Origin: Spirochaetae bacterium HGW-Spirochaetae-5
GTDB taxonomy: Bacteria; Spirochaetota; UBA4802; UBA5550
NCBI GenBank assembly: GCA_002839285.1
Contig: PGXT01000060.1
Location: 1 to 34,242 of the forward strand
Length of the DNA: 34,242 nucleotides
Direction: 5' to 3'
The translations under genes were made by a program, and so were the position numbers. The notes beneath the pieces were generated by a model. The model was not told the DNA's origin. It did not search any database and worked only from the letters and a program-made list of their open reading frames with translations. Shown here piece by piece: positions 1,581 to 23,918 of this stretch (positions are counted from its first letter, which is position 1; the number at the start of each line of letters is the position of its first letter).

Positions 1581-2204
1581 ATGAACTATATTTCAGAGTG
1601 GAAAACATACTTAAAAAATAAATCTTTCAATGAAAATACAATATCTGACGTAATTATTAAACTTACTGAGAAATATAAGGAAAATCATAGATTCTACCAC
1701 AATTTGAATCATATAAAAAACATGTATGATACACTTTCAAACTTTAAAGATAAAATTGATAACAATGAAAGTATTTTTTATGCTATATGGTTCCATGATG
1801 TTATATATGACACAAAGTCATTTGATAATGAAGAAAAGAGTTCAGATTATGCTAAATATGTGCTATCAGATCTTAAAATAAATGATACCATTATTAGAAA
1901 AGTTATTCAACTAATATTAATTACAAAAAATCATTGTCCGATAGAAAATTCATTTGATGAAAAAATATTTCTCGATTCTGATTTATTAATACTGGGTCAA
2001 AATAAAGATAAATACAAAGAGTATATGGAATCCATTAGAAAGGAATTTCATTGGGTAGATAATATAAACTATAATGCAAGTCGAATTACTATTTTAAAAA
2101 AATTTCTAAAAAGACCAACAATTTATTTTACTGATGAGTTTAAAGATTTATACGAGTCCATTGCTAGACAAAACATACAAGAGGAGATAAGTTATTTAAA
2201 ATGA
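1581..2204 (+). CDS. HD-superfamily predicted metal-dependent phosphohydrolase
   Basis: This 207-aa protein has the signature of the predicted HD phosphohydrolase family (COG4339 type). An H-Y-H-N-L-x-H segment lies at residues 38-44, the FHDVIYD metal-binding HD pair at H72-D73, and an NEE-x-S segment just after. The family is expected to hydrolyse phosphomonoester or phosphodiester bonds in a soluble substrate, but the substrate is unknown. AAGGA at about 1569 supports the ATG start. Its stop overlaps the next start (ATGA), so the two are translationally coupled. The gene is very AT-rich, unlike the chromosomal genes after 12 kb, and is followed by an attC-like site, so it is probably a mobile cassette gene. 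Confidence 0.85.
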   Translation: MNYISEWKTYLKNKSFNENTISDVIIKLTEKYKENHRFYHNLNHIKNMYDTLSNFKDKIDNNESIFYAIWFHDVIYDTKSFDNEEKSSDYAKYVLSDLKINDTIIRKVIQLILITKNHCPIENSFDEKIFLDSDLLILGQNKDKYKEYMESIRKEFHWVDNINYNASRITILKKFLKRPTIYFTDEFKDLYESIARQNIQEEISYLK

Positions 2205-2572
2205 AACTTTTTGATAAAATAAAATCTGTTTTTATTAATCGTAAAAATCCAGAATTACACTATGTTGTAAATGTTGATGATGAAGGTATCTCTTGCAGTC
2301 ATCCCAAAAGAAATTTTGAAAGAATTAATTGGACTGATATTGATGAAATAGCAATTGTTACTACAAATGATGGACCATTTTTTCCTGATGTGTGGTTTGT
2401 TTTTATAGGAAAAGATACTGGTTGTTCTTTTCCTCAGGGTGCAACTAACCTAACAGATGAATTATTATTTGATAATATTATTAAACGATTTAAAAATTTT
2501 GATTATGCAATAATGATACAGGCTATGTCATGTGCTGAAAACAATAAATTTATATGTTGGACAAAACGTTAA
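2201..2572 (+). CDS. Conserved small hypothetical protein, second gene of HD cassette
   Basis: This 123-aa soluble protein has no signal peptide or membrane segment. The middle is distinctive: a WTDIDEIAI segment, then GPFFPDVWFVFIG and a CSFPQGA motif. I recognise this as the style of a small uncharacterised family but cannot assign a function. It overlaps the upstream HD gene by 4 nt (ATGA), so both are probably made from one message. The stop codon lies about 10 nt before the attC-like site, as expected for a cassette in which the attC sits just after the coding sequence. Confidence 0.75.
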   Translation: MKLFDKIKSVFINRKNPELHYVVNVDDEGISCSHPKRNFERINWTDIDEIAIVTTNDGPFFPDVWFVFIGKDTGCSFPQGATNLTDELLFDNIIKRFKNFDYAIMIQAMSCAENNKFICWTKR

Positions 2573-2581
2573 AAGACCTTC

Positions 2582-2681
2582 GCATAACAAAGCTTACCTG
2601 CGGCGCTCGGGGTACCTCGCTTGGGCTTCGCCACATTGCGGCAAAAGGCCGCCGCAACGTCAGGTAAGCAAGACGTTATCG
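2582..2681 (+). repeat. Integron attC-like recombination site 1
   Basis: The site starts with GCATAAC (R''-like, 2582-2588) and ends with GTTATCG (R'-like, 2675-2681). Perfect 9-bp arms GCTTACCTG (2592-2600) and CAGGTAAGC (2661-2669) lie inside, with an inner TGCGGCG / CGCCGCA stem. The central core GTACCTCGCTTGG (2612-2624) recurs in the sites at 3427 and 5732. Length of about 100 bp, polarity and position directly after a + strand gene all fit attC. Confidence 0.82.
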
Positions 2682-2745
2682 GCAATTGCATTTATATACT
2701 TGTTAATATACTTGACTTTCCCCAGCCTTTTATTATCTTTTACAT

Positions 2746-2751
2746 AGGAGG
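2746..2751 (+). promoter_or_regulatory. Strong ribosome binding site for the antitoxin gene
   Basis: A full AGGAGG lies 6 nt before the ATG at 2758. It fixes the antitoxin start and is the strongest Shine-Dalgarno sequence in the array, consistent with high antitoxin translation. Confidence 0.8.
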
Positions 2752-2757
2752 TATCCT

Positions 2758-2985
2758 ATGCCACAAATATCACTTTACATAGACAAAGAAACTTTAAACA
2801 AAATAGAAAAAGCTGCAAGCAGGGAAAAAATTTCTATTTCGAAATGGGTTGGAAAAAATATTAAAAAAGTCATAAAAGATGATTATCCGAAAGGCTACTT
2901 TGATTTATTCGGTTCTATATCAGATGAAACATTTGATATTAAATCTTTATCTTTTAAAAATGATTCTAAAAGAGAAAGTTTATGA
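2758..2985 (+). CDS. vapB: Ribbon-helix-helix type antitoxin (VapB-like)
   Basis: This 75-aa protein begins with a short beta strand (PQISLYID) followed by two helices, the pattern of CopG/Arc-type ribbon-helix-helix DNA-binding proteins that serve as type II antitoxins. The C-terminal half (after about residue 45) is charged and probably wraps the toxin. It overlaps the PIN-domain toxin by 4 nt (ATGA at 2982), the usual antitoxin-toxin arrangement. By family analogy it neutralises the toxin and autoregulates the pair. Toxin-antitoxin pairs are frequent stabilising cargo in large integron arrays, which fits the attC-like sites on both sides. Confidence 0.82.
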   Translation: MPQISLYIDKETLNKIEKAASREKISISKWVGKNIKKVIKDDYPKGYFDLFGSISDETFDIKSLSFKNDSKRESL

Positions 2986-3386
2986 ACTATTTTTTAGATA
3001 CAAATATATGTGTATATTTTCTTAAAGGGTTATATCCATCAGTATTAGAGAATATTCAAAATTCAAATCCGAATAATATTAAAATCCCATCAATCGTTAA
3101 AGCTGAACTTCTTTATGGAGCTGAGAAAAGTCAGCATAAAACAAAAAACCTTACAAATATTAATAGATTTCTTGAACCATTTGAAATTATCCCATTTGAT
3201 GATGACTGCTCGATCATTTATTCTAAAATTCGAGCGACTCTGGAATTAAAAGAGAAAGGAATCGGTCCAAATGATTATATAATTGCCTCAACAGCATTAG
3301 CAAAAAATGGGATTCTTGTGACAAATAACAGCAAAGAATTTGAAAGAATAAAAAATTTAAAAATTGAAAACTGGACCTTGAGATAA
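2982..3386 (+). CDS. vapC: PIN-domain ribonuclease toxin (VapC-like)
   Basis: This 134-aa PIN domain protein has family-typical length. The acidic Mg-binding residues are visible: D6 in FLDTNI, E42 in KAELLYGA and D98 in PNDYIIA. The C-terminal ILVTNNSKEFERI motif is the common VapC variant with Asn at the fourth acidic position, and the terminal IENW is also typical. VapC toxins cleave specific RNAs (tRNA or rRNA) in the cytoplasm until bound by VapB. The gene overlaps vapB by 4 nt and stops 10 nt before an attC-like site. All catalytic positions look intact, so it is likely functional. Confidence 0.88.
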   Translation: MNYFLDTNICVYFLKGLYPSVLENIQNSNPNNIKIPSIVKAELLYGAEKSQHKTKNLTNINRFLEPFEIIPFDDDCSIIYSKIRATLELKEKGIGPNDYIIASTALAKNGILVTNNSKEFERIKNLKIENWTLR

Positions 3387-3396
3387 ATTCAACAGC

Positions 3397-3550
3397 CGAT
3401 AACAAAGCTTACCTGCGGCACTCGTAGTACCTCGCTTGGCCTTCGTACGTTTCCCACTTAATTGTGGCAAAAACTTCTTGATTTTTATAAACTAAATCAG
3501 CATAAAATTTTTAGTACACTGGCAAAAGTCGTTTAGCCAGAACGTTATAT
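3397..3550 (+). repeat. attC-like site 2, enlarged and imperfect
   Basis: The 5' half (CGATAAC, then GCTTACCTGCGGC, then core GTACCTCGCTTGG at 3427-3439) matches site 1. The 3' half (CGTTTAGCCAGAACGTTATAT) instead resembles the 3' half of the site at 5702. About 50 bp of AT-rich DNA is inserted between the halves, giving 154 bp, and the outer arms no longer pair well. It is probably a recombined or partly decayed attC. Confidence 0.62.
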
Positions 3551-3941
3551 GAAATCAATAGTGAATGCCATTAATAACAATGAAACCTAACGTTGATCAC
3601 AATTCAGTTCTCATTACATTATTTTCGTGAATTACTTAAACATTCTTTTACTTCAAATTAATGATCATATGTTACATTTATATATCATCGCTAAGTTTAC
3701 ATGAATTCTAGAGATGAGCATTAATCTATATCAATAATATTAAACTCTAAGACTGTTTCTTTGTCGGAATTCATTGCTAAATATATATACCATGAATTTT
3801 AAAAAATTATCAAATTTTTAAATCTATGATTTCTAAAAAAGTTGACTTTTTAGAATAATCCGGTTTTAACCTTTCTTATTCACCCTTAAAATTTTGCCTG
3901 GTTGAGGGAATCTATTTTTATTATAATATCTGGAGGCTAAC
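3551..3941. other. Long AT-rich cassette leader without gene
   Basis: About 390 bp separate the attC-like box from the lipoprotein ATG. I see no ORF of interest. A weak promoter candidate, TTGACT at 3842-3847 with TTTAAC 17 nt downstream at 3865, could let the cassette gene be expressed on its own. The length is unusual for a cassette 5' region. Confidence 0.4.
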
Positions 3942-4508
3942 ATGAAAAAAATTTCATATCTATTTTGCATGTTTGTATTTGTTGGTTGCTCTACAATGTC
4001 AGCAAATATTGTGGAACCGAGAGCAGATATTTTTATTAATCAAAAATATAAAAACAGTACTTTATTTATTATTATAGATGATAGAGTAAAAAACGATTTT
4101 TTATCAAAAAGTTCTGGTGGTATAAAGGATATCCAAATCAACGGGTTTAGAGAAAGCCTATCCAATGGATTATTATACTCTTTTTCTTCAAATGTAAGAG
4201 AAGTAGTATTTGTTGAATCACAAGAAAAAGAAGGATTATATCTCATCATCAGGTTTGCTTACCCGAGAATTTATAAGTATAAATCCAATTTAATACAAAC
4301 TAAAGATGACGATCAATATGATAAACCTGAAGTAAAATGTAAATTAGAGTATGTAGCAGAACTATCCCTGAATGGTAAACTAATTAAATCCGTTAATAAA
4401 GAAGTTGTGAGTGAAGGATCAATCTTTACAATATTCGAGACAGATGCACTTTTACGTGATGTAATCGAAGTAATGTTCCGGGAAATAGGTAAAGATTTAT
4501 TTATTTAA
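3942..4508 (+). CDS. Cassette-borne putative lipoprotein
   Basis: This 188-aa protein has a lipoprotein signal peptide: MKK, a hydrophobic stretch, then the lipobox FVGC at about C16. It is therefore expected to be lipid-anchored in the periplasm or outer membrane. The remainder has a mixed beta/alpha pattern with no catalytic motif I recognise. The start is supported by GGAGG about 8 nt upstream. It is AT-rich like its cassette neighbours and lies on the same strand between two attC-like sites. No function is assigned. Confidence 0.75.
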   Translation: MKKISYLFCMFVFVGCSTMSANIVEPRADIFINQKYKNSTLFIIIDDRVKNDFLSKSSGGIKDIQINGFRESLSNGLLYSFSSNVREVVFVESQEKEGLYLIIRFAYPRIYKYKSNLIQTKDDDQYDKPEVKCKLEYVAELSLNGKLIKSVNKEVVSEGSIFTIFETDALLRDVIEVMFREIGKDLFI

Positions 4509-4655
4509 GTTTTTTATCTTCAAAAGCCACAAACCAATAACAGATTTGTCATCAAAGAATAAATATCGGCAATACGAAATTACGCATTACGATTGTTGCA
4601 AATTTTTTCGTATCCATCACCAGAGTTTAGCAATATTGTGCAATCTCTCTACGGT

Positions 4656-4756
4656 GTACAGTAAAGCTTATGCGCTTCAATCCCTGACGGTTGTTCGGGC
4701 TACGCCAAATCGCGGCGGTAAGGCTGCCGCGACTTCGCATAAGCAAGACGTTGTAC
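4656..4756 (+). repeat. attC-like site 3
   Basis: The boxes are GTACAGT (4656-4662) and GTTGTAC (4750-4756). Perfect 9-bp arms GCTTATGCG (4666-4674) and CGCATAAGC (4736-4744) flank a GC-rich inner stem (CGCGGC / GCCGCG). The core differs from the GTACCTCGCTTGG family, so this cassette may come from another source. The site starts about 150 bp after the lipoprotein stop, so part of this cassette is non-coding. Confidence 0.75.
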
Positions 4757-4790
4757 ACAATAAGCTTGAATTAAAAAACATGGAGAATTC

Positions 4791-5684
4791 ATGAAAACAA
4801 TTACTGTCCTATTATTAGCTTCAATAATTTCTTCTACAAATAATTTTACTCAATTTAAAAATTTAATAAATCAAAGCAAATATTCTGAAGCAAAAGTTGT
4901 ACTAGATAATTGGGGTGACTCAAAAGAAAATGACCCGCAGTATTACATCAGCTGTTTCAACTATTATATAATACAATCACAGAAAAGTGGAATGGTATTA
5001 CAAACTGAGAAACCTTATTCTGGTGATAGTTTTGAAATAACCGACTCTTCATCAGGTGAAACAAAAGGTTATATGGCAAATAGAACATATTATGAAGGTG
5101 AAAATTATAATAAAGCAATTGATTATATCAAAAAAGGTATCAATAAATTTCCAGATCATTATGAAATGAGATTTGGCTTGTTATGGGTTCACCAAGAGAA
5201 TAGAAATTTCAAACAGTTTCTCACCGAATTCGAAGATGCGTTGAAATTTTATTACTTAAATAAACCCAAAATAGTTTACTGGAATGAAAATAAAATAATT
5301 AATTCACCATATGATTTCATTATTGAAAATGCTCAAGGAAATATCAACTATTTTTACAATAATCTTGATCTTCAGAAAAGTAATTCATTTTTAAATGCAT
5401 GTAATGATTTAATAATTAAATATTATCCTGATCATAAATATGGTTACAATAATAAGGGAATAATGAGTTATATAACGAAAGACTTTAATAATGCTCTTAA
5501 ATATTATTCTGTTGCATATAGTAAAGACCAAAATGATGCTATGATATTATTGAACATCGCTTATACTTATAAAAATCTGAATGACATTGAACAATCTAAA
5601 AAATATTTTAATAATGTCATTAAACTTGATAAAACTGGTGAATACAAAAAAATTGCAAAAAAAGAACTGAGCGAATTAAAATAA
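4791..5684 (+). CDS. Secreted TPR-repeat protein
   Basis: This 297-aa protein starts with a signal-peptide-like segment (MKTITVLLLASIIS). TPR-like helical pairs are visible at about residues 102-125 (YNKAIDYIKKGINKFPDHYE) and 225-290 (DFNNALKYYSVAYSKDQNDAMILLNIAY, then QSKKYFNNVIKLD). TPRs are protein-protein interaction scaffolds. No catalytic motif is visible. GGAG about 6 nt before the ATG supports the start. The gene lies between attC-like sites 3 and 4 and has the AT-rich composition of the array. Its partner and role are unknown. Confidence 0.78.
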   Translation: MKTITVLLLASIISSTNNFTQFKNLINQSKYSEAKVVLDNWGDSKENDPQYYISCFNYYIIQSQKSGMVLQTEKPYSGDSFEITDSSSGETKGYMANRTYYEGENYNKAIDYIKKGINKFPDHYEMRFGLLWVHQENRNFKQFLTEFEDALKFYYLNKPKIVYWNENKIINSPYDFIIENAQGNINYFYNNLDLQKSNSFLNACNDLIIKYYPDHKYGYNNKGIMSYITKDFNNALKYYSVAYSKDQNDAMILLNIAYTYKNLNDIEQSKKYFNNVIKLDKTGEYKKIAKKELSELK

Positions 5685-5701
5685 CTTTTTGCGCTTACTG
5701 C

Positions 5702-5800
5702 ATATTACAAAGCTTAAACGCGGCGCTCGAAGTACCTCGCTTGGCCTTACGCCACAATGCGCAAAAGACCGCGCAATGTCGCTTAGCCAGGACGTTATGT
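5702..5800 (+). repeat. attC-like site 4
   Basis: The R''-like box ATATTAC (5702-5708) is followed by GCTTAAACGCGGCG and the array-specific core GTACCTCGCTTGG (5732-5744). The site closes with CGCTTAGCCAGGAC and GTTATGT (5794-5800). An inner GCGC-rich stem is present, but the outer arms pair only partly. It starts 17 bp after the TPR gene stop. Confidence 0.75.
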
Positions 5801-5888
5801 GAAAAAAGCGTTTTTTTAAAATCAAAAATATAGTCTTAACGGTATTTATAATATAAAAATATCGCATCATTGATTAAGCAGGAATAGT

Positions 5889-6515: not shown

Positions 6516-6951
6516 AAATTAGTGAAAATGAATCTATTCTAAAAAGTGCCCGGCCTTCATATAACTTAAAGAAGTTTTAATGTAGTTGCCGAAAAATAAA
6601 CTGCTAAGATTCATTAGCGGTTTATCACAATTAAGGATGTGATTTTAATTATTCGAATCAGCTATATAAAGACTCGATTGACAAAACCGCTGCTGACAAG
6701 CAGACCACGCTTTGACCACACTTAATCACCGGAGTACTTCACCTGAACTTCGCCACAACACACAAAAGACAGACCACGCAACATCAGGTTGCACCAGAAT
6801 ATTTTTTTTGAAGTAAGATTAACTTTTAAAAATGATAAATTTGATTTTTTTTTATATTCTATTAAATTATGGAGCAGTATAAGATTGTGTTTTCTTTCGT
6901 TTCTCCGCAGAAAACGAAATAAATAAACTTTTAATCATTGAGGAATATTAT
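6516..6951. other. Intergenic region with decayed attC
   Basis: A GCTAA/TTAGC hairpin lies around 6604-6621, followed by the decayed attC-like site at 6692-6803, then an AT-rich leader with a T-run at 6841-6853 before the next gene. I see no gene. Confidence 0.45.
6692..6803 (+). repeat. Decayed attC-like site 5
   Basis: This region aligns in order with the intact sites. It has a GCTGACA box, GTACTTC in place of GTACCTC, CTTCGCCACA, CAAAAGAC, CGCAACATCAGGT, then CCAGAATATT where the intact sites have ACGTTAT. Both outer boxes are damaged, so it is probably inactive. Confidence 0.5.
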
Positions 6952-8205: not shown

Positions 8206-8292
8206 AGCATAGATGAAAATATGGACTCAGGAATTATCGGGATTAGGTAAAGTCTGTCATAATCAGCAGGAACGAAAAATATTTTTTGAGCA

Positions 8293-8357
8293 GCATATAA
8301 AGTTTACCCGCGGAGCACGAAGTACTTCGCATCGCCTGCTTAAATGCCGGGACTTTT
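8293..8357 (+). repeat. Truncated attC-like site 6
   Basis: GCATATAAAGTTTACCCGCGG is followed by GCACGAAGTACTTCGC and then TTAAATGCCGGGAC. The order mirrors the 5' half of the intact sites (box, arm, core), but the middle is deleted and the 3' GTTRNNN box is gone. It is probably a dead site. Confidence 0.45.
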
Positions 8358-12347: not shown

Positions 12348-15203
12348 ATGCTGCAGCATATCTCTGTAAAATATACTGTTCTAATCTTCATGGCGCTCTG
12401 CTGCCTGTTCCTGATACTATTGCCCTCGTGCGTTAACAACTCACAAAAAATTAAAAGTCCTTCTGTAGAGAGAGGTGTAATAGATCTCCGTGAATGGAGC
12501 TTTGAAAAAAATGGTTCCGTAAGTCTTAACGGCGAGTGGGAATTCTATCACGGTCTGCTTAAACCGGATGATTTAATCAGGCCGGAAATCCGGGGAATCC
12601 GCAAATATGTAAAAGTACCGGGAATGTGGAAAGATCTGACTCTGGAAGGTGGTGTTATTCCGGCACGCGGTGAAAATACCTACCGTCTGGAAATAATCAG
12701 CATCGCTGGTGAAAAGATAAAAAACCTCAGCATTTACTGTATCTATTCAGCCTACAGGATTTGGATAAACGGGATATTAGCTGATGAAAAAGGGATGCCC
12801 GATGCAACCTCACAAGCTGGAAATAATTATGTTTTTATTCATAACAAAAAGTTTTTATCATTCACCCCGGTGGATGGTGTTAACGAGATAGTCCTTCAGG
12901 TGTCCAATTACGATTATAAATCGGGTGGAATATACAGGCCGCTTGAGCTGGAGAATAAAGAAGTCACAGAACACAACGGATATATAAAGCATACTATTGA
13001 TATGATCATAGTGGGGCTTTTACTTTTTTTTGCTATTTACAATCTGCTTTTCTATTTTTTCCGCAGGCAGAATACTCCCGCATTTTATACCGGGTTATTC
13101 TGCCTTACTCTGGCAATAAACATTTTCAATCTGAATATTCGAATTCTCTCCGGTCCACTTTCATATCCGGAGAATCCCTATCTGCTTGATTATTTAACAG
13201 TAATACTGTTAGTCCTTTTTGTTTTTATGACGGTACGATCGCTCTTCCCGGATGATTTTTTTCAGCCTGTATACTACTCCAATATTGTCGTATCAGCGAT
13301 AATTATACCGATGCTTTTTTTTATGAATTTCAGAAAAGCCGAACAGTTGATGCAGTTTTATTTTATACTAATGGTAATTTTTATTTTATACAACGGGTAC
13401 GTATTTTTAAAGGCAATATATAACCGCAGAGACGATGCTATTCTTCTCTCCATCGGTTTTGTGTCTTTATTTACCGGCGGTATTAATGACACGCTCTATG
13501 CTCTGTGGATTATAGAGACTGTTAACATCGTACAATATACAATGGTTGTATTCTGCATAACAACAACAATATTTGTTGCACGCAGGTACTCCATGGAAAT
13601 GAAGAAACTTTCCAATGAACTGGTTGAGAAGAATATCTCTCTGGGAAAACTGGACCGCTTTAAAGACGAACTCCTGGCCAATACGTCACATGAACTGCGG
13701 ACACCGCTCCACGGAATAATAGGTCTGTCCGAATCAATGCTTGCCGGTACTTCCGGAAGACTTACCCCGGTCGCGATGGAAAACCTTCTGCTCATAGCTT
13801 CAAGCGGTCACAGGCTTTCAGGTATGGTCAATGATCTGCTGGACATGGCAAAGATGCAGGATGAAGAGCTTAGCCTTAATCTTCGCAGCCTCGATCTGAA
13901 AGTTCTTTGCGAGTCTGTTATTAAACTCTCCCTTCCGCTTACTGGTGATAAACCAGTTGAAATTATAAACAGTATTCCGCAGAACTTTCCGCCGGTCCAT
14001 GCCGATGAAAACCGGATACGCCAGGTTCTTCACAACCTGATCGGTAATGCGGTCAAGTTCACATCAAAAGGAAAAATTGAAATATCAGCCTCGGCATTCC
14101 CTCCTGCTGATGAAGCAAATGACAAAGATATGGTGGAAGTGAGAGTTGCAGATACGGGAATTGGTGTACCCGAATACTACAGGGAGAGCATATTCGAAGC
14201 ATACAGCCAGATCGACTCGGGAGATGCAAGGTCATATTCAGGTACGGGTCTTGGACTTGCCATAGCTAAAAAGATCATTGAACTTCACGGTGGACGAATA
14301 TCCGTTGCTCCGGGTGATGAATGCGGTTCGGTTTTTAAATTCACATTGCCGGCCGGTCCTGAACAGAATGAATGCTCTTCACTTGGTACAGTAACTGAGA
14401 GTATGTATGAACCCGGCGGGAATATATCCGCAGTACAATTCAGCAGCATAAGCGGTGACTACCGTACAGAAGGATTTGATGGTAATCCGGTTATACTTGC
14501 CGTGGATGATGACCCCATAAATATAATGGTGCTGAGAAACTGCCTTGAATCAAAAAACTGTATAATAAAAACAGCAGCTGACGGAATAAGTGCCCTTGAA
14601 ATGATTGAAAATGACCGGAGCATAGAGCTGGTGCTTCTTGATATAATGATGCCGGTCATAACCGGATATGAGGTCTGCAGAAGGATAAGGCTGAAATACA
14701 TGCCTGAGGAGCTCCCGGTTATAATGCTTACGGCAAAAAATATGATGTCAGATATAGATGCGGCCTTTGAAGCCGGCGCCAATGACTATATAGTCAAGCC
14801 GTTCCATATTAGTGAACTTCTGGCAAGAACTGCGGCAATGCTGAAGCTTAAAAAAGTCAGAAAATCCCCTGCAAAAGGGATATCCATTAACAGCAGGGGG
14901 ACTATATGTTTATTCACATTCATCGACATAATCTATATAACCTCCAGCGCAAAGAATATCATCATCCATACGGCCGACGCTGATACTGAACTGCCGGTTA
15001 TGATGAAAGATATTGTCCACAGACTCCCTCCTGACATCTTTGTCCGCATACATAAAAGTTATATTATAAATACAGGCTATATCCGTTCTGTTGACCATGT
15101 AATATCCGGCCGCTACCGGATACGTCTCCGCGATGAAGATGACACAGCTCTCCCCATCGGACCGGCATTCCTGGAATCCCTCAGAAAAAAAATACATCAA
15201 TAA
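12348..15203 (+). CDS. Membrane hybrid histidine kinase with receiver and LytTR domains
   Basis: This 951-aa signalling protein has these parts in order: an N-terminal hydrophobic signal or anchor (about 8-28); an extracytoplasmic jelly-roll 7TMR-DISM extracellular domain (about 40-205, with GVIDLREWSFEKNG and KVPGMWK); a seven-helix 7TMR-DISM membrane block (about 213-410); HisKA with phospho-acceptor H448 in NTSHELRTPLHG; HATPase_c with N, G1 and G2 boxes (GNAVKF, DTGIGVP, GTGLGLAI); a receiver with D720-D722 and phospho-Asp D765 in LLDIMMP; and a C-terminal LytTR DNA-binding domain (about 850-951, FVRIHKSYIINTGYI). Normally LytTR sits on a separate soluble regulator, so the all-in-one membrane form is odd. 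It probably senses an extracellular ligand and may bind DNA from the membrane. GGG 5 nt upstream is the only RBS hint. Confidence 0.88.
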   Translation: MLQHISVKYTVLIFMALCCLFLILLPSCVNNSQKIKSPSVERGVIDLREWSFEKNGSVSLNGEWEFYHGLLKPDDLIRPEIRGIRKYVKVPGMWKDLTLEGGVIPARGENTYRLEIISIAGEKIKNLSIYCIYSAYRIWINGILADEKGMPDATSQAGNNYVFIHNKKFLSFTPVDGVNEIVLQVSNYDYKSGGIYRPLELENKEVTEHNGYIKHTIDMIIVGLLLFFAIYNLLFYFFRRQNTPAFYTGLFCLTLAINIFNLNIRILSGPLSYPENPYLLDYLTVILLVLFVFMTVRSLFPDDFFQPVYYSNIVVSAIIIPMLFFMNFRKAEQLMQFYFILMVIFILYNGYVFLKAIYNRRDDAILLSIGFVSLFTGGINDTLYALWIIETVNIVQYTMVVFCITTTIFVARRYSMEMKKLSNELVEKNISLGKLDRFKDELLANTSHELRTPLHGIIGLSESMLAGTSGRLTPVAMENLLLIASSGHRLSGMVNDLLDMAKMQDEELSLNLRSLDLKVLCESVIKLSLPLTGDKPVEIINSIPQNFPPVHADENRIRQVLHNLIGNAVKFTSKGKIEISASAFPPADEANDKDMVEVRVADTGIGVPEYYRESIFEAYSQIDSGDARSYSGTGLGLAIAKKIIELHGGRISVAPGDECGSVFKFTLPAGPEQNECSSLGTVTESMYEPGGNISAVQFSSISGDYRTEGFDGNPVILAVDDDPINIMVLRNCLESKNCIIKTAADGISALEMIENDRSIELVLLDIMMPVITGYEVCRRIRLKYMPEELPVIMLTAKNMMSDIDAAFEAGANDYIVKPFHISELLARTAAMLKLKKVRKSPAKGISINSRGTICLFTFIDIIYITSSAKNIIIHTADADTELPVMMKDIVHRLPPDIFVRIHKSYIINTGYIRSVDHVISGRYRIRLRDEDDTALPIGPAFLESLRKKIHQ

Positions 15204-15368
15204 CGCACAGTTTGTTCCCCTGTACGCACTGTTCATTCCTTGCGGATTGACAAGAGCTTCTATATACTCTAGAATCACTGTAGATTCATCTCATTCGAAA
15301 AATTCAGCTGTGCGATTTTCCATGACCTGCTAACGGCAATCATGGCAACGGAATAACAGGTGATTTAA

Positions 15369-16310
15369 ATGTTCAGAAAGCTGCTCTTAAAGAATGAATC
15401 AGTGCACGCAGGAGTTCTACTCAAAAATTCAGCAATCCTGCTTTTTACTACGGCAGCAGCTGCTCTCCTGTCATGTTCAGATTTCAAATTTAATAAGGTC
15501 TTTATCGCTTTTTATCAGGGAAGTGTGACCATACAGAAAAATGGATCTTTACCGGTACAGGTTCAGGTGAAGGATCAGATTAACAATGATGATATAATAA
15601 GAACAGGTGAAAAGTCATGCCTTGTAGTACAGAGTACAGACGGCATCATCATCAGGTTTGAGCAGAACACAGAGGCTCAAATTTTATCATTAAAGAATAA
15701 AACTAAAAAAATAATTAACCTTAGTAACGGGAAAATCCTCTCCAGCGTATCAAAACTGAAAAAGGGTGAGGAGTTTTCTATAATGACACCCTCGACCGTT
15801 GCTTCCGTGAGAGGGACAGAGTTCCTTACGGCATTTAACGGCAGAGACTCAATTGTAGCAGTGGGTAACGGGAAAGTAAGCGTAAAAAGATTAACAGGCA
15901 GCAAAGATGAAAAGTCAGTGGAGACTGGTTTCACCGCAATAGCTCCCGGTAAAAATTCCAATCTGAATTTAAGAAAAATAAGTATAGTTGAGACTCTTGA
16001 ACTTTCCAAGTTCAAAAAAACTCCCATGGTTGAAAGGATAGAAAAGAAAACCCCGGAAGAGCTGAAGGAAATATTCAAAGAGACAATGCAGTGCGATGAG
16101 CAGATAAATGAAGAGATCAAAGAAAACCTTGGGCTTACCTTCGAAGAGATGAAGGCAAAGTATGGAAGGATCGATGTCCTGTATCTGTATAACGGAACTG
16201 AAGTAGAGGGTGTAATAGCCGCACGCGGAACCGTTTATAAGATGGTAACAAAAACAGGAATAGTGATGGTGGATTCCAAAGATATAAAAGGGACCGAAAC
16301 AAAGAGATAA
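15369..16310 (+). CDS. FecR-domain lipoprotein
   Basis: This 313-aa protein has a long signal peptide ending in the lipobox ALLSC (C36). A FecR-type domain follows (about 45-190), with YQGSVTIQKNG, NNDDIIRTGEKSCLVVQS and TPSTVASVRGTEFL. FecR domains are periplasmic beta-rich modules; outside iron signalling they occur in many surface lipoproteins. A charged helical stretch (about 205-265) leads to a small C-terminal beta module (YNGTEVEGVIAARGTVYKMV) that resembles the repeats at the start of the next protein. AGGTGA about 7 nt upstream supports the start. It probably belongs with the two following genes as a cell-envelope set. Confidence 0.83.
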   Translation: MFRKLLLKNESVHAGVLLKNSAILLFTTAAAALLSCSDFKFNKVFIAFYQGSVTIQKNGSLPVQVQVKDQINNDDIIRTGEKSCLVVQSTDGIIIRFEQNTEAQILSLKNKTKKIINLSNGKILSSVSKLKKGEEFSIMTPSTVASVRGTEFLTAFNGRDSIVAVGNGKVSVKRLTGSKDEKSVETGFTAIAPGKNSNLNLRKISIVETLELSKFKKTPMVERIEKKTPEELKEIFKETMQCDEQINEEIKENLGLTFEEMKAKYGRIDVLYLYNGTEVEGVIAARGTVYKMVTKTGIVMVDSKDIKGTETKR

Positions 16311-16411
16311 TATATACTGTCACCGCCAGGCAAAAGAGAGGTTAAACTATTATGTTATTAAATCGGATTATCCGGCAAATATGGGCTGAATAAATTACGA
16401 AGGTATATAAA

Positions 16412-17866
16412 TTGAAAACAGGCATATTGAGAAAAGTTCTCATAGCAGCTTCGTCAGCTTTAATGTTTACCACGTTTCCTGGAACGCCCGTCCATGCGGA
16501 ATTTGTATTCAAAAAAGACGGCTCGATAATAAAAGGTTCTATAGTAAAGGACTATCCCGGAAGCATCTCAGTAAAGAGAGCCGACGGTGTTTTAGAACAG
16601 GTTAAGCGCATTGACATAATGAGGATCAATTACACCGAGCTTTACCTTGGCAAAGTTTACGCCAGACTCACATCGGGTGAAGTTGTTGAGGGGTATCAGG
16701 TTGACGAGGACAGGGACAATTACTTCTTCCGGAAGGACCTTACAAGCCCGGAGGAGTTTAAAATTCAGCGTAAAAAAGTCATGTTTATAGCTCATACAAA
16801 TCCCACTGACGTAAAGGGGGATCCATCTACAGTTTTTATAAATATGTCATGGAGCCCGCCGTTTAAACCAGCAAAATTCTACAGGGTATATATCCGGGAC
16901 GTAAAAAACAATGAACAAGCATTCAAAAATTCCGGCGAAACCGCCGAGTCAGCATACACACTGAATAACCTCACTAAAAGCTGGACCTACGAACTATACG
17001 CAACAGCAATTGCCGATTCCGGAGAGGAATCACTCCCCAGTGAAAAGATCATAGTCAACACACGCCCTGAACCGCCTGAAAACCTTGTTCTAAATGAAGA
17101 ACTTTCACCGGACGGCAGAACTGTAAACTTAACATTCAAATGGGATGATGTAACTGATCCGGACAGCAGGGTAAAAGGATATAACATATACGAAATAATT
17201 GATGTAGAAAAAGTTAAAAAAGGAACTGCGGAGGGGGGAGAATTTACAATAAAAGATTTCCCCGCAGAGGGTAAGCACCGGTTTTCACTTGTGGCAGTGA
17301 ATGATATTTCAGCAGAGTCTGCTGAAGTGAAAACAGTATATGATGCCGGGTACAGGATTTATGTAAAGGGCAAAGCTGTTTATATTTATCCCCTGGGAAC
17401 AATGCGTGATATGGCGGCATCGGGTTACGGCGGAATGGTCGGGTCAGGCATTGTATGGAGAAAGTACAGCTTCGGACTTGAAACCGGAATCATGGTTTAC
17501 GAACCCGCAAAGTATATAAAAAACATGATGATGGCCCCTCTCCTTCTTGAAGCAGGCTATGAAATACAACTCCCCGGTCTATTTTCAAAACAGCTCACCG
17601 GTACATTCTCAATTAAACCTTTTGCAAAAGCAGGATGGAGCTACGATATTATTAAATACGTTGTTTATAATCCTTCAAATCCGCTCATAGAAGGGACTAA
17701 AACAAAGAAAAGCTTAGATCCCATGGCATCGGCAGGAGCATGTTTTAATTATGAATATGATGAGAAAATTAATATATATGCCGGAGCCGCGTATTCCGCG
17801 GAATTTCAGAAAAGCGGCAGGCTAGATTTTATAAATGTATCTTTCGGAGCGTGTACAGTTTTTTAA
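16412..17866 (+). CDS. Exported FN3-domain protein with outer-membrane-barrel-like C-terminus
   Basis: This 484-aa protein uses a TTG start; the choice is supported because it yields a proper signal peptide cleaved after VHA (about residue 29). Two small beta modules follow (FKKDGSIIKGSIVKD at about 33; ARLTSGEVVEGYQVDED at about 84), then two fibronectin type III-like domains (about 125-220 and 220-320, with TRPEPPENLVL between them). Residues 330-484 alternate like beta strands (GGMVGSGIVWRKYSFGLETG, INIYAGAAYSAEFQ) and end in Phe, typical of outer-membrane barrels. It is likely anchored in the outer membrane with FN3 modules in the periplasm or outside. No enzyme motif is seen. Confidence 0.75.
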   Translation: MKTGILRKVLIAASSALMFTTFPGTPVHAEFVFKKDGSIIKGSIVKDYPGSISVKRADGVLEQVKRIDIMRINYTELYLGKVYARLTSGEVVEGYQVDEDRDNYFFRKDLTSPEEFKIQRKKVMFIAHTNPTDVKGDPSTVFINMSWSPPFKPAKFYRVYIRDVKNNEQAFKNSGETAESAYTLNNLTKSWTYELYATAIADSGEESLPSEKIIVNTRPEPPENLVLNEELSPDGRTVNLTFKWDDVTDPDSRVKGYNIYEIIDVEKVKKGTAEGGEFTIKDFPAEGKHRFSLVAVNDISAESAEVKTVYDAGYRIYVKGKAVYIYPLGTMRDMAASGYGGMVGSGIVWRKYSFGLETGIMVYEPAKYIKNMMMAPLLLEAGYEIQLPGLFSKQLTGTFSIKPFAKAGWSYDIIKYVVYNPSNPLIEGTKTKKSLDPMASAGACFNYEYDEKINIYAGAAYSAEFQKSGRLDFINVSFGACTVF

Positions 17867-17912
17867 ATATCCCGCCCTTATGTACAATGAAAGGTTTCTA
17901 AAGGAGTATAAT

Positions 17913-19979
17913 ATGAAGAGAGTACTTTATCCCTTATTAATATCAGCATTATTACTGACAGGATGCGGCGATTCATTCTACTCCGCCCGGGACTACCTGA
18001 CCGGTCCGGTGGACGGGATAGGCCTTAAATCCTCCACATCGCTTGTGAGCGGCGGAACCGAGCAGCTCTACCCCGTTGTGTCACCACCTGATACATCAAA
18101 TAAAAGCGTTATATGGACAAGCAGCGACAGTTCAGTAGTATCTGTTGACAGCAATGGAGTGATCACAGGCGTGGCCGCACCCGCGCATGGTGCAACTGAA
18201 ACCGCAGTAATTACAGCAATAACAGCCGAAGGGGGCTACAGCGCCATGTGCACTGTAACGGTATCTGAAAAGCCCGTTGCAATAACCGGCGTTACTATAT
18301 CAAAGTCCGCAATGACCATACCCGCCGGCAACCAGGAACAGCTTACAGCGACGGTCGCACCCGCCGTTGCCACAAACCAGAACCTCACATGGACAAGCAG
18401 CAGCAGTTCAAAAGTAACCGTAGACGCAAGCGGCCTTGTAACCGCCATCGCAGCAGGAACAGCCATAGTTACAGTAAACACTGTTGACGGAGGCTATAAG
18501 GCGTCATGTACTGTTACATCAACAACAGACCCTGTATACACCGTAACATACAACAGCAATACAGCCACAGGGGGAGATGTGCCGTCAGACACAAACGTCT
18601 ACCTTTCAGGATCAACAGTGACGGTAATGGACTCTAACACACTTTACAAAACCTCAAACACTTTCGCCGGATGGAATACCAGTTCTAATGGAAGCGGAAC
18701 AACATATGCAGTGGGATCAACTTTTACCATAGGATCATCTGATGCAGAACTTTACGCTCTATGGAGTGCTGATCCGACATATACCATAACCTATGACGGC
18801 AATTCCAATACAGGCGGGGATGTTCCCATAGATACAAACCATTACCTGCCCGGTGCAAATGTGACAGTACTTGGTAATACAGGCATACTTACCCGGACAA
18901 ATTTTGCCTTTGGAGGCTGGTATATAGATTCAAGCCATACATATAATGCGGGCAATTCATTTATAATGCCTGCAAATAATATAAGACTATTAGCAAAATG
19001 GGTTCCTGCATACACCGTGACTTATTTCGGTAACGGAAGCACGGGAGGAACAGTACCTGTTGACAATACAGCTTATGCAGAAGGCAGCAACGTTATAGTA
19101 AGGAGTAATTCAGGTAACCTTACCAGAACTGGATATATGTTTCAGGGATGGTATTCGTTATACGGTACTTATTATCAGCCGGGCCAGAGTTTTATAATGG
19201 GAAGCTCTAATGTTGTCCTATTTGCTAACTGGAGTACTGTCTTTACAACTTATGGAATCATAACTCTTACTGGAAATTGCATTGTTACAGTAAAAGCCTG
19301 GGGAGCAGGCGGAAAAAGCCAATCCAATGGTTACGATTATTGTAGTGGTGGCGGTGGCGGATATTCTTATTCAGTATTTTCAGCAACTGCAGGTGATGTG
19401 CTTCATGTTGTTGTTGGAACAGGGGGAGGAAATCCGGAAAATACCAGTATGCCCGCTCTTGGTGGTAATTTTGGTGGAGGTGGATCACTGGTTGCTATTT
19501 TCAGAGCGGGTAACTTCACTCTTAAAAGTTGTGCAGGTGGCGGAGGGAGTGGGTATGCTTCCGGAGCTGGAGGTGGAGCCTCTGGAGAAAGTATTAGTAA
19601 TTGGTTTGGTGTTTCGGCTAATGGAGGCAGCAACGGAATTGGTGGATATGGAACTGTTTCAACTGGAAGCGATATGTCGCTTACCTCTGCAACACTTATA
19701 GGATTCAATGGTAATGGAGGTTCCGGGTCAAGTGGTGGAGGATACGGTGGTGGAGGTTTCACAGTTCTTAACATTGGAGTTTTAGGGGATTATTGGGTAT
19801 CACATTCTGCAGGTGGAGGAGGATACTGTGAAGGTAACGGAAGCACAACAGTTACAGGTTCAGGAGCTACTCCAGGCAACAATACTGATCCTAACCTGCC
19901 AACCGGCTATGCAGTTGGAGGTATAAACGGTGCAAATGGCGGCAACGGAATTGTTATAGTTTCAATTGTTTATAATTAG
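17913..19979 (+). CDS. Surface lipoprotein with Big2, InlB-type repeats and glycine-rich domain
   Basis: This 688-aa lipoprotein has lipobox LLLTGC (C18). I chose the ATG at 17913 because it follows AAGGAG and gives the signal peptide; an earlier TTG at 17835 would bury it. Two Big2-like Ig domains (about 33-117 and 121-203; IWTSSDSSVVSVDSNGVITG) precede three InlB B-repeat modules (about 208-285, 289-363, 366-440; VTYFGNGSTGGTVPVDN, FQGWYS, then AxW). Residues 445-688 form a glycine-rich domain (VTVKAWGAGG, GGGGGYSYSVFSATAGD) like those in phage-tail and adhesin-type surface proteins. It is likely displayed on the cell surface and may mediate adhesion. Confidence 0.86.
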   Translation: MKRVLYPLLISALLLTGCGDSFYSARDYLTGPVDGIGLKSSTSLVSGGTEQLYPVVSPPDTSNKSVIWTSSDSSVVSVDSNGVITGVAAPAHGATETAVITAITAEGGYSAMCTVTVSEKPVAITGVTISKSAMTIPAGNQEQLTATVAPAVATNQNLTWTSSSSSKVTVDASGLVTAIAAGTAIVTVNTVDGGYKASCTVTSTTDPVYTVTYNSNTATGGDVPSDTNVYLSGSTVTVMDSNTLYKTSNTFAGWNTSSNGSGTTYAVGSTFTIGSSDAELYALWSADPTYTITYDGNSNTGGDVPIDTNHYLPGANVTVLGNTGILTRTNFAFGGWYIDSSHTYNAGNSFIMPANNIRLLAKWVPAYTVTYFGNGSTGGTVPVDNTAYAEGSNVIVRSNSGNLTRTGYMFQGWYSLYGTYYQPGQSFIMGSSNVVLFANWSTVFTTYGIITLTGNCIVTVKAWGAGGKSQSNGYDYCSGGGGGYSYSVFSATAGDVLHVVVGTGGGNPENTSMPALGGNFGGGGSLVAIFRAGNFTLKSCAGGGGSGYASGAGGGASGESISNWFGVSANGGSNGIGGYGTVSTGSDMSLTSATLIGFNGNGGSGSSGGGYGGGGFTVLNIGVLGDYWVSHSAGGGGYCEGNGSTTVTGSGATPGNNTDPNLPTGYAVGGINGANGGNGIVIVSIVYN

Positions 19980-20550
19980 TACCGGTAATTACAAAATGTA
20001 AAAAGGAGGCACGATGCCGGACGCCTCAGCTGGTTACTGCAAACCTGCATGGATGTACTCTGCAGTAACCATGGAACAGGTTTGTGGAACTTAAAGTAAA
20101 AAAAGCCCCGCGGCGACTGAGCGGGAACATTTCCTTTAACCCATCAGCTAAACAGGAAATCTCCCGGTTGTTAAAAAACAAATTTTAAAGAAATTACCCT
20201 CAATCATCATATTTTTCTGTTAAATTACCCCTCCTGCTGAAAAAAAATATAAATTGTTAACATGTACATATTTAAAATTATGTCAATTTGCTATCTATAA
20301 GAGTGTATAAATTCTATAGAAATTTAAAACTTAACATGATATTTTTGTTAAATAAAATAACACTTTTCTATTTTATCCATTAAATATACAGAATCATTAG
20401 AATTTTAAATAATAAACCGCTCAATACAATTCAAAAATGTTAATAAACTATTCACTGATTTTAAAATGAATAGAAATATAATGCTTTACAAATTTAAGAT
20501 TATGAAAGTTGTATATTTTTTATACAAAAATTTTGCGATGGTATACCTAT
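19980..20550. other. Long intergenic region with interlocked inverted repeats
   Basis: No gene is supported. The first 100 bp hold an interlocked pair of inverted repeats (annotated separately), then a CCCGC/GCGGG stem (20106-20124) and an ATTTCC/GGAAAT pair near 20130-20160. From about 20210 the region is AT-rich and probably carries the promoter of the kinase gene, but I see no clear -35/-10 pair and no TGGC-N8-TTGCA sigma-54 site. Confidence 0.45.
20032..20084. repeat. Two interlocked inverted repeats (pseudoknot-like order)
   Basis: GGTTACTGCA (20032-20041) pairs with TGCAGTAACC (20061-20070). CAAACCTG (20040-20047) pairs with CAGGTTTG (20077-20084). The order a-b-a'-b' means the two stems cannot nest: they either form a pseudoknot or are mutually exclusive. 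The region lies 50 bp after the glycine-rich lipoprotein gene. It matches no riboswitch family I know. Confidence 0.6.
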
Positions 20551-21999
20551 ATGATCACTCCGCATATATCATTTCCATGGAAGACATTTCTGGGGAGAGT
20601 CGTTGTCCCCACAGTGCTTACCATAATTCTATTCATATCCGCTTTCTTCTTCGTGATTATTCCGGCAATCAGAGAAAACAGTATGGATAGAAAAAGAGAG
20701 ATGATAAGGGAGCTTACAACATCGGCATGGAACATCCTTGCTAAATTCAACAATGATGAACAGAAAGGGATAATGACACGCCAGCAGGCACAGCGGCAGG
20801 CCATTGAACAGATAAAAAATCTCCATTACGGTCAGCAGCTGAAAGATTACTTCTGGATCAACGATATGTCCCCCCGCATGATAATTCACCCCTACCGCAC
20901 AGACCTTAACGGCCAGGACCTGAGTAACTATACCGACCCTGACGGCAAAAAAGTTTTTATTGAAATTGTAAAAGCTGTATCAAAAAGCGGCTCCGGCTAT
21001 GTGAACTACAAATGGCAGGCCAACGATGATCCGTCTAACATAGTAGAAAAAATATCATACGTCAAAGGATTTTCTCCATGGGGATGGGTTATCGGTACCG
21101 GTATATACATAGAGGATGTTAACGCGGAAATCGACCTTCTTATAGAGAATATAATAGCTGTTTCAATTGTCATATGCATGTTCAATGTTCTGCTTTTTGT
21201 AAACATTATACGTGTAAGCTACCTCACTCACAAGAAACAGAGAGCGGCTGAACAGGAACTGAAAAAAACAAAGTCATCTTTAGCGCTGTCGGAAAAGATG
21301 GCATCACTTGGAACACTCTCGGCAATGGTTGCGCATGAAATTAACAATCCGTTATCGGGTATACTCTCATACGCAAAGCTTTCGACAAAATATCTGGAGA
21401 AGGGCGAAATTAACAAGTCCACTGTCGATTCAGTAATCAACAATCTGTCAATCATAGCAAGCGAAACAAAACGGTGCGGAGAAATTGTAAAAAATCTTCT
21501 TCTCTTTGCCAAGCAGTCCCTTGGAGATGTACAGCCGGTTAACCTGAATGAAATTATTACACTAAGCACTAAAGTAATTGACCATAGCGCAAAAATGAAA
21601 AATATTGAACTCAGAACAGAACTGGATACAGGCGATGACACAATTCAATGCGACCCCGGATCGATACAGCAGATACTTGTATCACTGATAGTGAATTCTC
21701 TTGAATCATCATCTCAGGGGAAACAGATAACAGTTAAAACCGACTACAGGGATAAAGAAAAAATTATTATCCGGGTAATAGATCAGGGTCACGGAATAGA
21801 CGAAAAAAATCTCCCGTTTATTTTTGATCCGTTTTTTTCCACAAAAGATTCAAACAGCAGCCTGGGGCTTGGCCTTTCAGCTGTCTACGGCATTGTTCAG
21901 AATCATTCCGGAAATATAAATGTAGAGTCGAAAATCGGGCGGGGAACAGAATTTACAATAACCCTTCCGCGGACATATAAAGAAATTGAAGAAGAATAA
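20551..21999 (+). CDS. Cache-domain membrane sensor histidine kinase
   Basis: This 482-aa kinase has TM1 at about residues 14-36, an extracytoplasmic single-Cache-type domain at about 42-192 (HYGQQLKDYFWINDM, MIIHPYR, SPWGWVIGTGIYI), TM2 at about 198-222, a short coiled coil, HisKA with H262 in MVAHEINNPLSG, and HATPase_c (DQGHGIDEKN, LGLGLSAVYGI). I chose the ATG at 20551 over a TTG 42 bp upstream because its N-terminus then aligns residue for residue (22 aa to VPTV) with the paralogous sensor starting at 33008; no good RBS is visible. Such Cache domains often bind small carboxylates or other organic ligands. It is followed 18 bp later by its partner regulator. Confidence 0.9.
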   Translation: MITPHISFPWKTFLGRVVVPTVLTIILFISAFFFVIIPAIRENSMDRKREMIRELTTSAWNILAKFNNDEQKGIMTRQQAQRQAIEQIKNLHYGQQLKDYFWINDMSPRMIIHPYRTDLNGQDLSNYTDPDGKKVFIEIVKAVSKSGSGYVNYKWQANDDPSNIVEKISYVKGFSPWGWVIGTGIYIEDVNAEIDLLIENIIAVSIVICMFNVLLFVNIIRVSYLTHKKQRAAEQELKKTKSSLALSEKMASLGTLSAMVAHEINNPLSGILSYAKLSTKYLEKGEINKSTVDSVINNLSIIASETKRCGEIVKNLLLFAKQSLGDVQPVNLNEIITLSTKVIDHSAKMKNIELRTELDTGDDTIQCDPGSIQQILVSLIVNSLESSSQGKQITVKTDYRDKEKIIIRVIDQGHGIDEKNLPFIFDPFFSTKDSNSSLGLGLSAVYGIVQNHSGNINVESKIGRGTEFTITLPRTYKEIEEE

Positions 22000-22017
22000 A
22001 ACAGGGAGTTACAGGAT

Positions 22018-23388
22018 ATGAAACCTTCGGATATATCAATATTAATAGTAGATGACGAGGCGTCGATACGGGACGCCCTTACCAAATGGTTCGAACTTGA
22101 CGGCTACCGCGTCAGTTCGGCTGAAGACGCAAACAGCGCCCTACTGAAGCTTCAGGAGGGTCCATGGGATATTGTAATGCTCGACATAAAGATGCCGGGT
22201 ATTGACGGTCTGGAACTTCAGAGAAGAATAAAAAAAATTGATAAAAATATAATAACCATTATTATCACAGCATTTGCCGCGGTGGATACAAGCATACAGG
22301 CACTCAAAGAAGGTGCATTCGACTATATAGTAAAACCGGTCGATCCCGATGACATGAGCCATCTTATCCGTAACGCCGTGGAGCAGAGAAGACTTTTCTA
22401 CGAAAACCGGCAGCTTCGCACACATATCGAAGGGATATCTTTTTCCGACGAGATCATTGGAGAGAGCCCGGCAATAAAAAGAGTTATGGAGAAGGTTATA
22501 GAGGTTGCCCAGACCGATTCAACTGTAATCATTAAAGGTGAAAGCGGATCAGGTAAAGAGCTCATAGCCCGGGCAATTCACAGCAACAGCAACAGAAGAT
22601 ACTTCCCTATCATCACAATAAACTGCGGTGCATATTCAGACGGACTCCTGGAGAGTGAACTCTTCGGACATGAAAAAGGGGCTTTCCCCGGAGCGCTATA
22701 CAGACGCCAGGGGAGACTTGAAATGGCCGACAAGGGGACCATTTTCCTTGATGAAATCGGTCATATCAGCGAAAAGATGCAGGCGGACATTCTTAGAGTT
22801 ATTGAAACAAAACAGTTTACAAGACTCGGAGGTGACCGTGAAATAGATGTGGACTTCCGTATCATCTGCGCAACAACTCACGACCTGGAGCGTGCTGTGC
22901 AGGATGGAACGTTCAGAGAGGATCTGTACTACAGACTTAATGTTGTTACCATAGCAATCCCCCCTCTCCGCGAAAGAAAACTGGATATCCCTGCTATCGC
23001 AAGATTCTTTATTAAAAAATATTCCCAGTCTATGAATAAGAATGTAATAGATATCTCCAACGATACACTGGAGATGCTTGTAGAGTATAACTGGCCGGGT
23101 AATGTACGTGAACTACGTAACGTTATAGAGCGCGCCATGGTTGTAACCAAGGGGAACCTCATTGAACTTAACGACCTGTCATTTTTCTTCCCCGACGCGG
23201 AACTCGATTCAGGTGAAAATATCCCCTCACTTGACGACGTTGAGAAAGCACACATACAGAAGGTACTTGAAATAACCAATGGAAACATTGCCCAGGCAGC
23301 GGGGATACTGAAAGTCAGCAGATTAACAATGTATAATAAAATCGAAAAATATCAGCTGAAAAAGCATAAAAACGAAGCTCAGCCCTGA
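22018..23388 (+). CDS. NtrC-family response regulator with atypical GAFPGA loop
   Basis: This 456-aa regulator has a receiver domain (1-120; D12-D13, phospho-Asp D56 in MLDIKMPG, KP near 106), a central AAA+ domain (about 145-375; Walker A GESGSGKE, Walker B TIFLDEIG, arginine-finger region FREDLYYRLNV) and a C-terminal Fis-type HTH (about 405-450; NGNIAQAAGILKVSRLTMY). The sigma-54-contacting loop, normally GAFTGA, reads GAFPGA (P224; codon CCC at 22687). The threonine is normally critical for engaging sigma-54, so this protein may activate poorly, use a modified mechanism, or act without sigma-54. The rest is intact. It is the partner of the Cache kinase 18 bp upstream. Confidence 0.92.
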   Translation: MKPSDISILIVDDEASIRDALTKWFELDGYRVSSAEDANSALLKLQEGPWDIVMLDIKMPGIDGLELQRRIKKIDKNIITIIITAFAAVDTSIQALKEGAFDYIVKPVDPDDMSHLIRNAVEQRRLFYENRQLRTHIEGISFSDEIIGESPAIKRVMEKVIEVAQTDSTVIIKGESGSGKELIARAIHSNSNRRYFPIITINCGAYSDGLLESELFGHEKGAFPGALYRRQGRLEMADKGTIFLDEIGHISEKMQADILRVIETKQFTRLGGDREIDVDFRIICATTHDLERAVQDGTFREDLYYRLNVVTIAIPPLRERKLDIPAIARFFIKKYSQSMNKNVIDISNDTLEMLVEYNWPGNVRELRNVIERAMVVTKGNLIELNDLSFFFPDAELDSGENIPSLDDVEKAHIQKVLEITNGNIAQAAGILKVSRLTMYNKIEKYQLKKHKNEAQP

Positions 23389-23390
23389 CC

Positions 23391-23918
23391 ATGCCCTATA
23401 TCTATATTTTACCCATAGAAAACGATCCATCCCCATGGATCGAAAATCTTGAAAAGAGTATTCACCGGACTTTCGGGTATTATTCAAAACTGGCCAGCCC
23501 TGACATCTGTCTTGAGAAAACATTCGATATGAAGAGAATGCAGTATAACTCTTCCCAGATTCTTCTGCAGATGATTGCCTCCCCTCCCCCCGATGCGGAA
23601 AAGATACTGGGCATTGTAAATATCGACCTCTTTATCCCTATTCTTACATTTGTTTTCGGAGAAGCACAGCTGAGAGGTATAGGTTCTATTGTATCGCTGC
23701 ACCGTCTGAATAATAAATTTTACGGACTCCCGGAGGACAAGGAACTTCTTTCTGAACGTCTAGTAAAAGAGGCAATACATGAACTGGGGCACAACTTCGG
23801 TCTTGTACACTGCGCCAATCAGGAGTGCGTGATGAAATCTTCGACTTATGTTGAAGATATAGATCATAAATCTGTCGAGATGTGCGACAACTGCAGAAGA
23901 GAACTGAGATCTCTTTAG
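23391..23918 (+). CDS. amzA: Archaemetzincin-family metalloprotease
   Basis: This 175-aa protein carries the archaemetzincin signature. HELGHNFGLVHC (H130, E131, H134, H140, C141) holds the catalytic zinc, C146 follows after four residues, then M148, and CDNC (C165, C168) completes a second structural zinc site. The family is found mainly in archaea and scattered bacteria, and its natural substrate is unsettled. No signal peptide is seen, so it is cytosolic. The ATG lies 2 bp after the regulator stop, so it is almost certainly in the kinase-regulator operon. Length is normal for the family. Confidence 0.93.
   Translation: MPYIYILPIENDPSPWIENLEKSIHRTFGYYSKLASPDICLEKTFDMKRMQYNSSQILLQMIASPPPDAEKILGIVNIDLFIPILTFVFGEAQLRGIGSIVSLHRLNNKFYGLPEDKELLSERLVKEAIHELGHNFGLVHCANQECVMKSSTYVEDIDHKSVEMCDNCRRELRSL

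Follow-up and report, generated by a model that had tools for sequence, protein, structure and literature searches.

The window analysed here is a 34,242-nucleotide stretch of DNA, contig C80 of the assembly of a Spirochaetae bacterium, that carries attC-like sites behind AT-rich genes and no integrase gene, which raises the question of what kind of system the array belongs to. The first-pass annotation had noted that an integrase was missing from view, which was borne out, and had left a choice between an attC cluster without integrase and the tail of a larger integron. Our analysis retains a piece of a larger system but neither a classical integron nor an integrase-less cluster; neither label fits strictly, because the sites lack an extrahelical base and the integrase is an I2-less protein rather than an IntI. 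Sequence comparison indicates, with good probability, that the window holds a distal or secondary array of a widespread integron-like variant, whose likely integrase is IntX, an I2-less recombinase encoded on contig C286. C80 and C286 are separate contigs in the assembly. The array is probably a piece of a larger system in the host genome, because 26 sites occur on eight contigs and C286 carries the integrase, an attI-like site and cassettes.

Table 1. Features of the array in the window and the recombinase gene on contig C286
Feature	Position	Strand	Remarks
First cassette in view	1581..2572	+	ORFs 1581-2204 (207 aa) and 2201-2572 (123 aa); 25% GC
attC-like site 1	2579..2684	+	Covariance model, 120 bits
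Cassette, antitoxin-like ORF (2758-2985) and VapC (2982-3386)	2758..3386	+	VapC above profile cut-off; antitoxin-like ORF below
attC-like site 2, hybrid	3394..3553 (3394-3516 by covariance model)	+	28 bits, E 1.6e-7
Cassette gene, lipoprotein-like, 188 aa	3942..4508	+	
attC-like site 3	4653..4759	+	Covariance model, 98.5 bits
Cassette gene, TPR protein, 297 aa	4791..5684	+	Profile match
attC-like site 4	5699..5803	+	Covariance model, 88 bits
Probable cassette gene, methyltransferase, 208 aa	5889..6515	+	30% GC
Decayed attC-like remnant	about 6680..6810	+	79% identity to site 1 over 28 nt (6730-6757)
Decayed attC-like remnant, 5' half	8288..8341	+	66% identity to site 1 over 47 nt (8294-8340)
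IntX, 385-residue tyrosine recombinase	contig C286, L026:3361-4518	-	

The covariance model and the supported pairing confirmed an integron-like cassette array of four attC-like sites in one orientation (Table 1), with the R''/R' boxes and the position 3' of genes described earlier. The layout is R''-AAC, a short spacer, the L'' arm, a variable loop, the L' arm, a longer spacer and GTT-R'. The core common to three of the sites, also described before, is GTACCTCGCTTGG. In site 1, R'' is TTCGCATAAC and R' is GTTATCGGCA, the L''/L' arms form 9 perfect base pairs, the spacers are AAA and AAGAC, and the insertion point is G^TT at 2675/2676. The AT-richness of the intervening genes was likewise upheld: the cassette genes have 25-30% GC, compared with about 42% at 12348-23918 of the window and 51-58% in the three sites measured. 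Complementary arms had been claimed for all four sites; pairing was supported overall, except that the arms of site 2 are unpaired, because its two halves are of different types.

Site 2 combines a 5' half of the GCTTACCTG type with a 3' half of the GTTTAGCC type; at 6 of 7 positions, its R'' agrees with the start of the cassette to which it belongs. This hybrid was perhaps produced by homologous recombination between two sites. The R'' and R' boxes of site 3 match each other at 6 of 7 positions and match neither neighbouring site, and R' of site 2 fits R'' of site 4 in part. From the boxes, it looks as if site 3 lay within a single older cassette.

Among the gene assignments proposed earlier, the TPR protein was supported by profile search. 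The VapBC pair stood in part, with VapC above the NF047863 cut-off and its antitoxin-like partner only weakly matched (DUF6364, below cut-off). The putative HD hydrolase pair, the two ORFs of the first cassette in view, matched no family in Pfam or NCBIfam, and a search 5' of position 1581 found no left edge of this cassette or of the array. The methyltransferase gene is probably one further cassette. The sites bear out the array placed at 2582-5800, and the two remnants extend it as an older, decayed continuation to approximately position 8340.

To establish the sites, we trained a covariance model on nine sites of the host genome, three of which are window sites and hence match partly by construction. 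Site 2, which was outside the model, was recovered at E 1.6e-7, and the next match in the window had E 0.06. Across the nine sites, two-sided changes were found in 13 of 35 pairs, versus 5.0 in shuffled alignments and 0-4 with slid partners. A scan of the window at Rfam gathering thresholds gave zero matches. In the 4.7-Mb host genome, the model detected 26 sites on 8 of 309 contigs (C80, C179, C181, C277, C286, C52, C14 and C203); because the sites are confined to these contigs, the palindromes are not spread genome-wide away from cassette genes, the case in which the annotation had proposed to abandon its reading. On C203, a single site (127669-127771, in L031) stands alone on a 148-kb contig. 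Closely similar sites were found in genomes from other genera of the host family and from a second family in its order (L090, 98 bits; L078, 97 bits; L097, 120 bits), and at canonical IntI loci no site reached the threshold. A first plain scan for 8-bp arms with AAC/GTT was noisy (185 matches versus 135 in the control) and gave way to a scoring that allowed bulges and wobbles, and then to the circle rule described below. Several detection settings had been tried beforehand, and therefore the p-values apply to the final tests only.

The annotation had advised a search outside the window for intI and attI. An attI-like site was located on C286, and the integrase beside it proved to be the I2-less IntX and not an IntI. 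The I2 additional domain, of approximately 40 residues, is regarded as essential to integron integrases. The IntX gene adjoins rpmH-rnpA-yidD-yidC in divergent orientation. In 24 relatives, the catalytic residues R243, K271, R336, H359 and Y368 are invariant, and H333 is nearly so. The nearest solved structure by both sequence and predicted fold is VchIntIA (2A3V), with a model of mean pLDDT 79 and pTM 0.54 whose confidence is low near the tyrosine segment. IntX has next to nothing equivalent to residues 185-236 of VchIntIA. IntX proteins, like Xer-like ones, have 62-73 residues between the lysine motif and the HxLRH motif (68 in the host IntX), versus 105-106 in 21 IntI proteins. Against TIGR02249, the host IntX scored 207.9 bits in two pieces and did not reach the cut-off of 265; against NF040815, it scored 231.1 bits, above the cut-off of 220. 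HARP (PF07443) matched the N-terminal domain at 20.8 bits, under the gathering score of 25, and was matched at E ≤0.01 in 13 of 24 IntX homologues (best 5.4e-6); the best PDB chain for this domain by sequence was the SMARCAL1 HARP domain (4o66, E 5e-4). The N-terminal domain thus appears to resemble HARP. By these sequence criteria, IntX is distinct from IntI in lacking the additional domain, in falling below the IntI family cut-off and in its HARP-like N-terminal domain. A classical IntI in the host genome was rejected, as none of the candidates in the 95% complete assembly exceeded the TIGR02249 cut-off.

The attI-like site, G^TTGTACGAA, lies approximately 75 nt past the IntX stop codon, and cassettes stand behind it, the first ending in TTCGTACAAC. 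This first cassette (L026:3060-3335, minus strand) has no evident gene, and its stretch GCTTCGGCCGACGTTACATGGCCAGCCGG... recurs in a later cassette at about L026:960-1060 (minus strand), beside a run of N. The ends of one cassette are expected to be complementary, because they are partners in one R''/R' pair when the circle is inserted. In this circle rule, the first bases of a cassette after G^TT are compared with its last bases before AAC and scored out of 7. In the host genome, 16 links gave a mean of 5.31 versus 4.36 when permuted (p 1e-4). Across 47 links from 18 IntX loci, the mean was 5.28 versus 3.57 when shuffled, a value never reached in 5000 shuffles; the mean within sites of the same set was 2.96. 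Between attI and the end of the first cassette, the match was exact at 11 of 19 loci and at least 6/7 at 14 of 19, versus 0 of 342 and 6 of 342 swapped pairs; the 18-19 loci of both tests had been chosen because arrays were detectable there. Over all IntX loci, unpicked, attI matches were found downstream in 10 of 64 and upstream in 5 of 88, versus 0 of 64 in the scrambled control, and for most IntX-like genes no array was found nearby. Among the upstream matches are those of L072, L076 and L082, which belong to a second IntX lineage with arrays divergent from the integrase gene. An attI-like site beside the integrase, followed by a first cassette, is thus present on C286 and at most array-bearing IntX loci. 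Cassettes of gene plus site lie in one orientation and follow the circle rule, save at window sites 2-4, which break it.

The annotation had also suggested folding the bottom strands for extrahelical bases; these were absent, and the bottom-strand advantage was weak in the host genome (13 of 20 sites, p 0.08). A one-base bulge in L'' was seen in 1 of 58 IntX sites versus all 16 IntI sites from two Treponema-like IntI arrays. The spacers are near-equal in all 16 of these IntI sites, whereas in IntX sites the spacer on the R' side is longer; beyond the first scan this inequality is not independent evidence, because it later became part of the detection filter. With top and bottom strands scored alike, 93 wobbles at 18 IntX loci pair only in the folded bottom strand versus 16 only in the top strand, and in Flavobacteriaceae the bottom-only wobbles occupy fixed positions. 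The bottom strand was predicted to be more stable at 12 of 12 sites in G095 and at every site of five Bacteroidota arrays (10 of 10 in Algibacter, 16 of 16 in the other four), and at 5 of 8 pooled other sites. The loops between the arms range from 13 to 190 nt.

Array-bearing IntX genes were found in other Spirochaetota and in Bacteroidota (Algibacter onchidii, Seonamhaeicola, Winogradskyella, Rufibacter, Aquiflexum, Algoriphagus and Flavobacterium aciduliphilum). An IntI above cut-off was present in 6 of 98 Spirochaetota genomes; G095, which is 99% complete in two contigs, had none, and neither did any of 10 Bacteroidota genomes that carry IntX arrays. Two Spirochaetota genomes, G028 (L066, L201) and G059 (L079, L202), carry canonical IntI and IntX together and are a natural comparison of the two within one cell. 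In Candidatus Peregrinibacteria (MFXJ01000002.1, L135:8221-8382), an IntX-like gene is accompanied by one hairpin site and an attI-like match upstream, a possible Patescibacteria case of an IntX array. In a tree of 52 proteins, array-bearing IntX proteins grouped with IntI to the exclusion of Xer (100/100), and IntI was monophyletic (100/100); two IntX lineages and IntI diverge from a basal polytomy, and IntX stood as one side of a branch in 1% of bootstrap trees. We tentatively suggest that several I2-less integrase lineages may run hairpin-site arrays in Spirochaetota, Bacteroidota and possibly Patescibacteria, that an I2-less origin of cassette integrons is possible, and that IntI, as one of these lineages, might later have added I2 and the extrahelical base.

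The catalytic residues, the attI-like site, the circle rule, the hairpin geometry and the common orientation are the basis, drawn from sequence, for the following model. Acting on a cassette excised as a circle, IntX would recombine the cassette's attC with the attI that adjoins the integrase gene, the two sites being joined at their G^TT. Because attI is the joining point and lies there, new cassettes would enter next to the IntX gene and older ones would be pushed further off; recombination between two attC sites would release circles. The bottom strand may be recombined as a folded hairpin, with unequal spacers and bottom-only G.T pairs replacing the extrahelical base in strand choice, and the HARP-like domain may aid hairpin binding. 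The C80 array would be served by the IntX of C286.

The main doubt concerns the strand on which IntX acts. IntI recognises single strands by means of I2 and the extrahelical base; both are absent here, and in the host genome the folded top strand is predicted to be nearly as stable as the bottom strand, as would suit an enzyme acting on double-stranded DNA like Xer and phage integrases, with hairpins as a by-product of inverted binding sites. However, the arms are 13 to 190 nt apart, pairing is conserved without conserved sequence, and wobbles and stability favour the bottom strand in most arrays, which makes this account unlikely. That the palindromes are a dispersed REP-like or MITE-like repeat in chance gene order would agree with GC-rich repeats in an AT-rich region, but only 26 occur in 4.7 Mb, mostly clustered and in one orientation per array, and they stand behind genes with ends that follow the circle rule. 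We rejected this reading as extremely improbable, given how few and clustered the sites are in the whole-genome search.

The array could also be an ordinary CALIN, its cassettes laid by a canonical IntI that was lost, unassembled or supplied in trans, with IntX as a Xer-type bystander. CALINs are common and have a wider distribution than complete integrons (PMC9668308), an IntI could be missing from a host assembly that is 95% complete, and two relatives, G028 and G059, carry both enzymes. Nevertheless, the end of the first cassette agrees with the attI-like site next to IntX, neither G095 nor the 10 Bacteroidota genomes contain an IntI above cut-off, and the site shape is unlike that of IntI sites; we consider this origin improbable. 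The window by itself does resemble a CALIN, with several attC-like sites and no integrase, but differs in that the host genome has an array-bearing recombinase elsewhere and the site shape is not canonical. An integron variant with I2-less integrases is our best reading. Like Treponema-type chromosomal integrons, it combines an integrase and an array in one orientation, an attI, R''/R' boxes with G^TT and hairpin sites; unlike them, it has an integrase without the additional domain, below TIGR02249 and with a HARP-like N-terminus, and sites without an extrahelical base.

Treponema has been the only spirochete clade found with integrons (PMC3607928), and integron-like systems in spirochaetes thus reach beyond it. 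Integron surveys select integrases by the additional domain (PMC2426708, PMC8352920), which has been called a defining characteristic (PMC9668308); because of this requirement, such surveys would overlook IntX systems or count them as clusters without an integrase. IntX is a possible source of some CALINs, and gene-capture systems of this sort may be commoner and more varied than current searches detect. Direct proof that the gain of I2 led to single-strand recombination is unavailable, since deleting I2 abolishes IntI1 function (PMC7790495); with integrases that naturally lack I2 and have hairpin cassette sites, the role of I2 would become testable. In the open-access literature, together with few subscription papers and no preprints, we found no description of I2-less cassette integrons. 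The host IntX exceeds the cut-off of the XerA-like family NF040815 ('site-specific tyrosine recombinase/integron integrase'), which also takes in Xer proteins, and in an 'integron-like subgroup' reported previously the insertion is not fully conserved (PMC8138268); we found no paper tying I2-less members of either to cassette arrays.

Related sequences occur on plasmids. TnpF/'xerD' on Acinetobacter plasmids is a 221-residue remainder of an IntX-like recombinase, 52% identical to IntX, and has tet(X3) downstream on the same strand; unlike IntX, it lacks the N-terminal part, and no complete attC-like site was found. tet(X3) as an intact IntX cassette was rejected, as there is no complete site and its flank mismatches the upstream attI-like sequence. 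An attI-like stretch ending in GTTATGTGCC lies between the fragment and tet(X3) (L233:8028-10049, L234:2967-4988). In Bacteroidota, a mobilizable plasmid of Flagellimonas marinaquae (NZ_CP092416.1, L236:7898-8745) carries a dihydrofolate-reductase-family gene flanked by two IntX-type sites, and this cassette lies near erm(F) and an IntX gene.
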